From positions 1 through 58,893 of the forward strand of contig DASXVE010000032.1 of assembly GCA_036504445.1 (NCBI GenBank): a stretch of 58,893 nucleotides of DNA, given 5' to 3'. Numbering within the stretch: the first letter of the stretch is position 1; every line of letters starts with the position of its first letter. Positions 1,630 through 27,536 of this stretch are shown here, piece after piece. Source of the stretch: Candidatus Aquicultor sp. (GTDB lineage: Bacteria; Actinomycetota; Aquicultoria; Aquicultorales; Aquicultoraceae). The notes beneath the pieces were generated by a model. It was not told the DNA's origin, ran no database searches, and saw only the letters and a program-made list of their open reading frames with translations. Both the position numbers and the translations under genes were made by a program.

Positions 1630-2838
1630 CTAGACTGAAACCAGAGCCGGCTCTGGTTTCACGGCTTGCACTGCTGCTACATCCCTTACCGACATATCGA
1701 GGTATTTCCTACCCGAGAGCCACTCCTCAGATTGCTCAGCTGCCAAGGCAGTGATAAGTCTTAGGGCAGCTTCTTCGTTTGGAAAGATCCTGACCACTTT
1801 GGTTCTTCTTTTTATCTCCTGGTTATACCTTTCCAGTAGATTAGTGGTTCGCATGCGGCGCCTGTGGCCCTCCGGCAGGGAAAAACAGGCGAGGATGCTG
1901 TCGGCGCTGTCCTCTAACATTTCTGATACGCTCTCGTAGCGACTCTGATAGCGAAGAGTGCATGCTGTCAAAAGTTCTCTGGCGCGCTCCCCGTTAGCGC
2001 TATTAAATATTGCCTGCATATCAGCCTTAAGAGCCGCTCTATCGGCTTTGGCCACTTTATCCAGGATATTTCTCATGAAGTGGCACTGGCACCGCTGCCA
2101 GATGGCACCGGCAAAGTATCTCTCAACCGCCGTAACAAGGCCCGTGTGGTCGTCGCTTACCACAAACTCGACCCCGGTAAGACCTCTTTCAATTAACGAC
2201 CTAAACAGCTCACCCCAGCTTGTGGCACTTTCTGCGTTGGCAACCTCAACGGCGAGGATCTCGCGGTACCCTTCGGTATTTACTCCAGCGACAATTAAAA
2301 TGCTTTGGCTTACCACACCTCTGGGTGTGCGCACTTTCTCATAGCGGGCATCGATAACCAGGTAAGGATACTTCCCGAGAGGGCGCACCCTCCACGCCAA
2401 GAGTTCCTGGTCGAGTTCTTGGGCCAGGCGCAATACCTGGCTTTTTGATACCGTGTGCCCGCAAAGCTCCTCGGCTATTTTGGCCACCTTTCTCGTCGAG
2501 ACCCCCTGGATGTACATCTCAATGATGGAGAGCGCCAGCGCCTTCTCACTTCGCTGATACCGCTCAAAGAGCTTTGTTGAGAAGCTTCCTTCCCGCCCTT
2601 GCGGTACTGCAAGGGCGATATCTCCGACCCTGGTATACAAGGTTCTCGGTTTGTAGCCGTTTCGATACCCCGTGCGCTCATCGCATCTCTCATAGGGATC
2701 AGCCTGCAGGAATTCGGCGATCTCTTTCTCCATGAATGCCTGCAGGAATCTCTGCACGATTACCTTTAAGAACTCCTTGTCATTTAAAAGTGCTTCTTGC
2801 AAAAACGCGGTCGAATTCGTACTCTTTTCGTGAGCCAT
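1630..2838 (-). CDS. IS256-family (Mutator-like) transposase
   Basis: This 402-residue DDE transposase is full length for the family. The catalytic triad fits D163 (LVIDARYEKVR), D229/D230 (VSDDHTG) and E336 (TTNLLERYNQEIKRR), the last lying in the helical insertion typical of IS256/MULE enzymes. The conserved CQCHFMRN segment is also present. The ATG at 2838 has a GAGGAAAT ribosome site. The extreme C-terminus, VKPEPALVSV, is encoded by a perfect 26-bp palindrome at 1636-1661. That palindrome may act as a hairpin at the end of the transcript. No frameshift is visible, so the gene may be active. Confidence 0.95.
   Translation of the reverse strand: MAHEKSTNSTAFLQEALLNDKEFLKVIVQRFLQAFMEKEIAEFLQADPYERCDERTGYRNGYKPRTLYTRVGDIALAVPQGREGSFSTKLFERYQRSEKALALSIIEMYIQGVSTRKVAKIAEELCGHTVSKSQVLRLAQELDQELLAWRVRPLGKYPYLVIDARYEKVRTPRGVVSQSILIVAGVNTEGYREILAVEVANAESATSWGELFRSLIERGLTGVEFVVSDDHTGLVTAVERYFAGAIWQRCQCHFMRNILDKVAKADRAALKADMQAIFNSANGERARELLTACTLRYQSRYESVSEMLEDSADSILACFSLPEGHRRRMRTTNLLERYNQEIKRRTKVVRIFPNEEAALRLITALAAEQSEEWLSGRKYLDMSVRDVAAVQAVKPEPALVSV
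1636..1661. repeat. Perfect 26-bp palindrome at transposase 3' end
   Basis: The 13-bp arm TGAAACCAGAGCC is followed directly by its reverse complement. It lies inside the last codons of the transposase and just inside the left end of the IS. It could form a cruciform or RNA hairpin that limits read-through into neighbouring DNA. Confidence 0.7.
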
Positions 2839-3536: not shown

Positions 3537-3562
3537 AAAACCATACTAAAGTAGTGGTTTTT
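3537..3562 (+). terminator. Second hairpin with T tail
   Basis: AAAACCA-t-ACTA pairs with TAGTGGTTTT around an AAG loop and is followed by TTATTT. It is probably a backup terminator before the secreted-protein gene. Confidence 0.5.
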
Positions 3563-3631
3563 ATTTGCTATGCTTTGGCTATAAAAAAGAGCAGGCATAG
3601 GATCTTTATTGCTACCTGGGGAGACTACGTA

Positions 3632-4480
3632 ATGATTAAGAAACCGATACTCTTAGCTCTGGCTTTACTTTTATTGCTTGCAGTTCATGCGGCAATAAGT
3701 AGCGCAAATCCTACAATGCTGGCAAACTTGGCTGGTAACGGTGGTGAGACCGACGTGAACAGTAATGATTTAAATTGCGACCAAGATGATTCAACATCGG
3801 AAGGCACCAAGAGCGGATCTCTTAGCATTACCAATAACTCTTCTTTAACCGGCGATGGGCTTTCTGAGACATCGGTAACAATAACCGGCGCCGATGGCGG
3901 CGATATATTGTGGTCGAGCAACGACCCTAATGCCAGCCATGCAACAACATTTACGGCGGGCAATGGCGTCAACATTGCAACGTACTATAGCAACAACGCA
4001 TCGAGCTGCAATTCCAATGGGATGAACGGCTCCACTGCAAGTAATAGTTCTCATATAGTTGTCACCAATTCGGGTGGTTATTCTAATTATAATCCGGGGT
4101 CAGATTCATACACACCTTCGACTACCCGCCCAACAAGCTGTTCACAAAATCAAGACAGCCAAACAACACGTCGGAACACAGTAAGCCGTACATACTCTTG
4201 CGGGCCCAACCATAGCTGCTCCAGCGGGAGCAGTGAGGTCAACGTCTCGGTTAAAAGCAGTGTAACGTGTAACGGCGCGACGAGCACCGCCATATCCGGG
4301 TCAAGCATAGTTAATTCGCATAAAGTTGCAACCAGCAGTAACGGGTCCGCATACGCAAGCTATGGGGGCAACGTAGAAACACACGCTTTGGACGGCCAGG
4401 TTTGCGTTAACGGTCGTATCGTTGACCTGAAAGATTTAGATGACCTTAAAGCAACTCTTGGGGACAAGATTACGAAGTAA
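3632..4480 (+). CDS. Secreted Asn/Ser/Thr-rich protein, unknown function
   Basis: This 282-residue protein was given the start MIKKPILLALALLLLL, which makes a textbook Sec signal peptide (cleavage predicted near SSA-NP, residue 25). Earlier in-frame codons would bury it. The mature part is low complexity: Asn, Ser, Thr and Gly dominate, with Cys scattered singly or in CxxxxxC spacing (NCDQDD, SSCNSN, SCSQNQD, SCGPNHSCSS). There is no recognisable enzyme motif. The C-terminus changes to a conventional charged segment (VCVNGRIVDLKDLDDLKATLGDK). It could be a cell-surface, adhesive or fibre-like protein. The composition suggests extended beta structure, but that is inference. It is monocistronic. 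Confidence 0.75.
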   Translation: MIKKPILLALALLLLLAVHAAISSANPTMLANLAGNGGETDVNSNDLNCDQDDSTSEGTKSGSLSITNNSSLTGDGLSETSVTITGADGGDILWSSNDPNASHATTFTAGNGVNIATYYSNNASSCNSNGMNGSTASNSSHIVVTNSGGYSNYNPGSDSYTPSTTRPTSCSQNQDSQTTRRNTVSRTYSCGPNHSCSSGSSEVNVSVKSSVTCNGATSTAISGSSIVNSHKVATSSNGSAYASYGGNVETHALDGQVCVNGRIVDLKDLDDLKATLGDKITK

Positions 4481-4508: not shown

Positions 4509-4703
4509 CTAAACAGCTGCCGCCTTCTTGATCTTAGCTGACGGCGTTTCCATTGCGATGGTTGGGCCGGTGATTTTGATCTGATCCCAGCAGCCCGAGC
4601 ACTTGCCCTCGCATGGTGAATAATTGCGTGTGCAGAATTGACAGCAGACATCCAGTTTTTCTGGGCATATATGCGTATGCTCCGAACACTTTATGTTTTC
4701 CAT
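4509..4703 (-). CDS. Cys-rich mini-protein, probable metal binder
   Basis: This 64-residue protein has eight Cys and two His in its first 38 residues: C6, H9, H11, C13, C20, C21, C24, C31, C35, C38. The pattern CC-x2-C, then C-x3-C-x2-C, suggests one or two zinc or iron-sulfur sites. The C-terminal third is Lys/Ala-rich without Cys. A strong CTAGGAGGC ribosome site precedes the ATG. I cannot name a family. Upstream on the same strand are a -35/-10 pair at 4897-4925 and a multi-helix leader at 4772-4884, so expression is probably controlled through an RNA leader of about 190 nt. Metal or redox sensing would fit the Cys content but is not shown. Confidence 0.8.
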   Translation of the reverse strand: MENIKCSEHTHICPEKLDVCCQFCTRNYSPCEGKCSGCWDQIKITGPTIAMETPSAKIKKAAAV

Positions 4704-4771
4704 AACTGCCTCCTAGAATATCTAATGCCGTGTATACCCGAAGCTACAAAGACCTACTAGAGTGTTAGTGA

Positions 4772-4884
4772 AATCGCCAAGTTACCATGCGGGTAAGGTT
4801 CGGAGTATCGACCGGCTCTGCGTGATTTCGGATACGCGATAGAGAACTTTAATGAAGGAACCCTAAGCAACTGAGTTGGCGATT
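4772..4884 (-). ncRNA. Candidate structured 5' leader (riboswitch-like)
   Basis: Several nested helices can form. P1 pairs 4772-4780 with 4876-4884 (AATCGCCAA/TTGGCGATT, 9 bp perfect). P2 pairs 4782-4786 with 4792-4796 (TTACC/GGTAA). P3 pairs 4797-4801 with 4858-4862 (GGTTC/GAACC). P4 combines CTCT/AGAG (4816-4819, 4841-4844) stacked on GCGT/ACGC (4820-4823, 4834-4837). This makes a junction closed by P1. A minus-strand promoter places the start site about 6 nt before P1 and the Cys-rich gene starts about 70 nt after it, the usual place for a cis-regulator. I could not match it to a known riboswitch class. Strand is inferred from the promoter and gene. Confidence 0.55.
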
Positions 4885-4896
4885 ACCGGTAAGATA

Positions 4897-4925
4897 GTTA
4901 TATAATACACCAATTTGACTTACAA
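4897..4925 (-). promoter_or_regulatory. Promoter of the structured leader/Cys-rich gene
   Basis: Minus-strand TTGTAA (4920-4925) and TATAAC (4897-4902) are 17 bp apart. They place transcription start near 4890, just ahead of the leader's closing helix. Confidence 0.55.
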
Positions 4926-4964
4926 CGCTAGCAAAATATCCGCTGTCGCTAAAATGTAAACGTA

Positions 4965-4990
4965 GTGGCGGGGCCTTGCGGCCCCGCCAC
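4965..4990 (-). terminator. GC-rich hairpin downstream of groEL
   Basis: An 11-bp perfect stem (GTGGCGGGGCC/GGCCCCGCCAC) closes a 4-nt loop. On the minus strand it is followed by a T-containing but broken tract (ACGTTTACATTTT). It is the most likely terminator of groES-groEL, about 190 nt past the stop. Confidence 0.6.
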
Positions 4991-27152: not shown

Positions 27153-27282
27153 AGGGTCTCCCTTCGTGATGTAAAGCGTGCGACAACAAATCTAGCGCGT
27201 GGCACATCAAAACATAAAAAATAGGGGATTACTGCTAAGATCCGGCGAGGACATGACTGTGCCGGTTTCTTTGCCACTTGAT

Positions 27283-27449
27283 AATTCTTTGTCCCAGTGG
27301 TCACCCTCCGGTTTTGTGGTTATCATAACGACCGTGGCCGGCCGAGAGGCACCCGCCGAATGCTCGTTTCCGAGCTTCTCGATTAACCTCTTCCTCGTCA
27401 ACTGCGTAAACCTGCTCTGACTAATTCAATACTACGCAGTTCTGGCGCT
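27283..27449 (-). ncRNA. glmS ribozyme
   Basis: On the minus strand the conserved core is unmistakable. The cleavage site A|GCGCCAGAACU has its scissile bond between 27449 and 27448. P1 forms with GCAGUUGACGAGG (27393-27405), followed by GGUUAAUCGAG, a GCUCG-GAAA-CGAGC hairpin (27362-27375), UUCGGCGGGUGCCUC, and a distal GUGACC..GGGACAAAG. The order matches the Firmicute-type ribozyme. It sits about 130 nt before the glmS start. Glucosamine-6-phosphate acts as the cofactor of cleavage, giving feedback control of glmS. Small ORFs across it are not genes. Confidence 0.94.
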
Positions 27450-27536
27450 TTTACTTCCCCTATTCACTTACAACACAATCTGCCGTTACTTTTTAGACAC
27501 CACCTCTATCATCTACCCGTTACGGCGCCCATTTGA

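Follow-up and report, generated by a model that had tools for sequence, protein, structure and literature searches.

A non-coding element of 113–118 nucleotides is conserved in front of the same small gene in four genera of one family, that of the window among them. By the window we mean the whole stretch of DNA that was analysed, the 58,893 nucleotides of contig DASXVE010000032.1 (Candidatus Aquicultor sp., assembly GCA_036504445.1, forward strand). The element lies on the minus strand, behind a promoter-like sequence and ahead of a gene for a 64-amino-acid Cys-rich protein. From sequence comparison, we give a little better than an even chance that it is a lineage-specific, cis-acting 5′ leader of this gene. 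If it is real, a regulatory RNA and a family of small Cys-rich proteins, both undescribed, are linked here, and each would provide a handle on the other. The element is a candidate, and more sequences from the family are needed.

The conserved element and its locus

The features of the locus, in the order in which they would be transcribed, are as follows.

6821–5181, minus strand: groEL gene, upstream of the leader
4965–4990, minus strand: G+C-rich hairpin behind groEL and ahead of the leader, probably the groEL terminator
4897–4930, minus strand: promoter region, TTGTAA-17-TATAAC (4925–4897) or TAGC-19-TATTAT (4930–4902)
4876–4884, minus strand: 5′ arm of the putative closing helix, AATCGCC(AA), first 7 bases invariant in four genera
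4781–4875, minus strand: interior of the element, short conserved blocks CTTC, TCCG, GnAGnnC, GGT and CnGA, no inner helix supported
4772–4780, minus strand: 3′ arm of the putative closing helix, (TT)GGCGATT, last 7 bases invariant in four genera
4715–4771, minus strand: spacer from the element to the Shine–Dalgarno sequence, 57 nt in the window and 43–117 nt in relatives, unconserved
4709–4714, minus strand: Shine–Dalgarno sequence AGGAGG, with C the next base in all four copies
4509–4703, minus strand: 64-amino-acid Cys-rich ORF with its ATG at 4703, eight Cys

The original prediction, made from the letters of the window, had placed the main parts of this locus correctly. On the minus strand AATCGCCAA (4884–4876) and TTGGCGATT (4780–4772) form a perfect 9-bp complement that encloses 113 nucleotides end to end; AGGAGG (4714–4709) follows 57 nucleotides on, ahead of the ATG of the ORF. 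Upstream, the hairpin behind groEL has a similar counterpart at the matching place in three relatives; a terminator scan lists it on the plus strand of the window and on the transcribed strand of one further locus, L076.

A perfect inverted repeat of this kind, taken on its own and without comparison, is not clearly beyond chance. When the 480-nucleotide region is replaced by Markov versions, 13% of them contain one of 9 bp with a span of 60–150 nucleotides; for the window, the number of such 9-mer pairs is 32, and its Markov versions have 17–31. What makes the element more than a chance arrangement is its conservation in the three other genera. We compared four copies, those of the window (G000), G005 (locus L023), G004 (L025) and G001 (L028). 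Across the element 36 of the 120 alignment columns are invariant, against 7.2 ± 2.8 in shuffled sequences (largest value 14). The 60 nucleotides upstream hold 9 invariant columns (5.2 ± 2.2 shuffled, largest 10), while there are 7 in the spacer ahead of the ORF (3.9 ± 2.3, largest 10), so neither the promoter side nor the spacer is clearly above its shuffles. Conservation is thus confined to the element, which shows it to be a genuinely conserved non-coding element. Its invariant columns comprise the 14 of the terminal 7-mers and 22 in the interior, where about 5 are expected when the interiors are shuffled with the ends held (about 19 in total, 14 of them the fixed ends). Between pairs of copies the interiors are 41–55% identical.

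This pattern bears on a reading in which the region has little or no regulatory role, as a passive 5′ stem that guards the mRNA or as intergenic homology remaining from shared ancestry. The lack of a common inner helix and the weak fold stability of three of the copies, described below, would suit such a region. It keeps 36 invariant columns, however, while its flanks are not clearly above shuffles, and a passive stem has no need of a fixed sequence; we therefore regard this reading as unlikely.

The terminal seven bases on either side are identical in all four copies, and the two 7-mers are exact reverse complements of each other, so they would act either paired as a helix or as inverted sites. 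The latter case would be a pair of DNA operators, with AATCGCC near the transcription start and GGCGATT some 100 bp downstream of it, to which a repressor would bind, perhaps with looping; no RNA structure would be involved. The ends are indeed conserved as exact sequence and not as covarying pairs, and the upstream arm lies near +1. Two short sites, however, have no use for 22 invariant interior columns. The arm spacing also varies by 0, 2 and 5 bp, the last (in G001) about half a helical turn, which weakly disfavours phased sites, and other AATCGCC...GGCGATT pairs in the pattern-scanned genomes look coding by eye, with no second operator pair recognised among them. The variation in arm distance and the interior conservation beyond what two operators require lead us to favour an RNA element, and we judge the operator model quite improbable.

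The promoter-like sequence of the original prediction, TTGTAA (4925–4920) and TATAAC (4902–4897) with a 17-nucleotide spacer, is present on the minus strand. The gap from its −10 hexamer to the helix is 12 nucleotides, so the helix would begin roughly 5–6 nucleotides from a normal start point, close behind the promoter as had been proposed. The alternative, TAGC-19-TATTAT (4930–4902), agrees better with the other leaders, since TAGC/TGGC-19-TAT(T/C)AT occurs at the matching place in all three when the alignment is inspected by eye; 0.49 chance occurrences of this pattern are expected per window. By the same inspection, a candidate −10 lies about 12–17 nucleotides ahead of the helix in all four copies. 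A promoter consensus scan of the window listed neither candidate −35/−10 pair. From these promoter-like sequences we infer that the leader is transcribed as part of the mRNA, and their spacing would put the start of transcription a few bases ahead of AATCGCC.

Two neighbouring ORFs may be mentioned here. One close to the element (1630–2838, minus strand, 402 amino acids) resembles an IS256-type transposase, by eye only. Another (3554–4480, plus strand, 308 amino acids) is convergent with the Cys-rich gene, rich in Ser, Asn and Thr and possibly equipped with a signal peptide, and it matches no Pfam or NCBIfam family at the family's cut-off.

Folding and possible routes of control

When the isolated element is folded, six of the seven pairs of the closing helix are predicted with a probability of at least 0.75 in every one of the four copies. 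These seven pairs never vary, so covariation cannot support the helix. Only the flanking pair 8 of the helix region varies, from A-U in the window to U-A in G001; in G005 and G004, pairs 8 and 9 do not form in a simple way. When full leaders are folded, other predicted pairings displace the closing helix in three of the four copies, a result compatible with a switch as well as with the poor reliability of folds over 200–280 nucleotides. Near codon 10 of the ORF, a site with which the 3′ arm could pair lies in G001, where the sequence contains AATCGCC, and in G004 according to the predicted fold; no such site was seen by eye in the other two copies.

The inner structure proposed at first did not hold up in the comparison. 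Three inner helices had been drawn, and the copy in the window has a minimum-energy fold that differs from them inside the element, with inner helices of its own that none of the other three copies shares. The proposed helices are best seen as one of several possible folds. The window element is somewhat more stable than its shuffles (z about −2.1), while the other three copies (z −0.3 to −0.5) and the full 196-nucleotide leader of the window (z +0.96) fold no better than theirs. A search for covariation among homologous leaders had also been suggested. Such leaders do exist in three genera, but of the 12 pairs that RNAalifold predicts from these four sequences none has a two-sided change, and the closing helix is invariant. 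Averaged pair probabilities over the four copies, in which smoothing leaks closing-helix pairs into adjacent columns, added nothing beyond that helix. One shared stem near TCCG (TATCG/CGATA, GAAC/GTTT, AGAT/ATCT and CAAAA/TTTTG) appeared compensatory and was rejected, as 17% of shuffles equal it. A pseudoknotted core would escape these stem-sharing tests, and four sequences are too few.

A conserved expression platform, either a terminator or sequestration of the Shine–Dalgarno sequence, was not found among the four copies. A terminator-like site occurs in G005 alone (CGGCGATTCTGCCG-TGATTTTT, right at the end of the element and built from the 3′ arm); the terminator scan gave none between element and ORF in the window, G004 or G001. 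Pairing between the interior and the Shine–Dalgarno sequence is no better than with shuffled interiors in any of the four copies, and pairing of the conserved CTTC block, tried as an anti-Shine–Dalgarno, is likewise not better than shuffles. This result, together with a spacer that is unconserved at 43–117 nucleotides, means that a direct Shine–Dalgarno switch is not supported. The geometry of a riboswitch, as the original prediction read it, is therefore not borne out in the four copies, which share neither an inner helix beyond chance nor a platform.

A rival reading is an independent small RNA of about 113–120 nucleotides, cut from the transcript or ending within it and acting elsewhere, with the Cys-rich gene a mere neighbour or co-transcribed. 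Conservation stops with the 3′ arm, and the spacer beyond it is conserved in neither sequence nor length; a discrete RNA fits this no worse than does a switch, which has to reach the Shine–Dalgarno sequence; the possible terminator at the element's end in G005 points the same way. We nonetheless find the idea doubtful, for the element was never found apart from the Cys-rich gene, and in three of the four copies no terminator-like site follows the helix.

For the cis-acting leader that we prefer, the following course of events may be proposed. In the nascent RNA, AATCGCC would pair with GGCGATT and close a domain of about 100 nucleotides, whose short conserved blocks may be recognised by a partner (ligand, protein or RNA). 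Binding of this partner would then set the expression of the downstream Cys-rich protein. Control would most likely act through mRNA stability or translation, because three of the four copies lack a terminator between element and ORF. Stability, translation by way of a bound partner and release of a small RNA are as likely as a direct Shine–Dalgarno switch. A more specific version, tentative and rather doubtful, is that the element represents a new, narrow class of riboswitch or protein-responsive leader in this little-studied family of Actinomycetota. Such a leader would respond to a metal, to the redox state or to the encoded protein, and would combine an invariant closing helix with a pseudoknotted core. 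That the ligand is a metal or a redox signal is a guess prompted by the Cys-rich product.

Distribution and relation to known RNAs

The protein carries its eight Cys early, at positions 6, 13, 20, 21, 24, 31, 35 and 38, as had been noted, and all eight are invariant in seven homologues. It matches nothing in Pfam, NCBIfam or the PDB, and its AlphaFold model is uninformative (pLDDT 46). The gene is present in seven of the 11 family genomes searched. No homologue was found outside the family at E ≤ 0.001 in 36 genomes of the class, the remaining matches in a search of 99 relatives are weak, and phage and viral contigs gave none.

All four copies of the element directly precede the Cys-rich gene, and the element was never found apart from it. 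After the groEL stop codon the window, G005 and G004 share the order of G+C-rich hairpin, promoter-like region, element and gene; the contig of G001 starts inside an apparent groEL 3′ end and continues in the same order. In three further genomes (G002, G007 and G009) the gene stands behind a kamA-like gene and no element was seen, and in G003, G006, G008 and G010 neither gene nor element was found. The element thus tracks the stand-alone, groEL-linked copies of the gene, four with it against three kamA-linked copies without. In the latter arrangement (loci L024, L026 and L027/L037) the Cys-rich gene lies directly behind the kamA-like gene, which we take to be of the lysine 2,3-aminomutase type; this neighbour may hint at the function of the protein. 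A degenerate copy upstream of the kamA-like genes was sought at one mismatch per arm, with none in L073 or L037; upstream of that in L074 there is one chance-like match with a mismatched pair.

Some other explanations were tried and set aside. A mobile element (a MITE or similar repeat bounded by terminal inverted repeats) is at odds with a single copy in the genome. An upstream ORF or leader peptide was rejected because, by eye, the copies do not share their open frames and the frame in which the conserved TCCG lies is not the same throughout. A DNA search of relatives with the whole leader returned, besides itself, short chance matches only. A covariance model built from the four copies recovers them at 101–129 bits and gave no convincing fifth copy in 396 genomes of the phylum and 36 of the class. 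Its best weak match (27 bits) is a partial alignment near a contig end, by adapter-like sequence, and we do not take it as a homologue.

The claim that the element belongs to no known RNA class stands. A search with the 4227 Rfam families at gathering scores gave no match at the element, relaxing the threshold to E up to 10 brought only chance-level matches near it, and the three homologous leaders have no match at E up to 0.5. The absence of Rfam matches and of further copies in the phylum and class genomes marks the element as narrow and undescribed. With so rare a distribution, it would be overlooked in surveys of well-sampled groups.

Like the cis-regulatory leaders in Rfam (riboswitches, ribosomal protein leaders and T-boxes), the element lies between promoter and start codon and has a putative terminal helix that closes a domain; unlike them, it matches no Rfam family. 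A further parallel is offered by the orphan riboswitch candidates and other gene-associated motif RNAs, such as the yjdF motif (PMC4793209; review PMC7266159), classes that are founded on covarying helices seen in many sequences. These too are conserved non-coding elements in the presumed 5′ leader of one gene annotated without a function. The element here differs from them: it has four copies, its closing helix is invariant and none of its inner helices is supported.

Other RNA elements in the window and its relatives

The window also contains a glmS ribozyme at 27269–27460 on the minus strand (Rfam, 110 bits), in a genome with a named relative that is classed as Actinomycetota.

In 10 of the 11 family genomes, a guaB-like IMP dehydrogenase gene is preceded by a different, unassigned leader (loci L090–L099; in L093, for example, at about 1532–1402 on the minus strand). 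Directly behind the −10 comes the 5′ tract AATTTTACCCATGRAATTGAGCA, which hardly varies; a variable part follows, and then a terminator in which a further hairpin is embedded (GCCCAG...CCC...GGG...GCGCTGGGTTTTT). A search of the window's own genome that allowed two mismatches did not find the tract, and in the loci scanned Rfam gave no match at E up to 0.5. RNAalifold predicts 17 pairs, two of them with two-sided changes. From its sequence this leader looks like a transcription attenuator, and it is perhaps a better riboswitch candidate than the leader of the Cys-rich gene.
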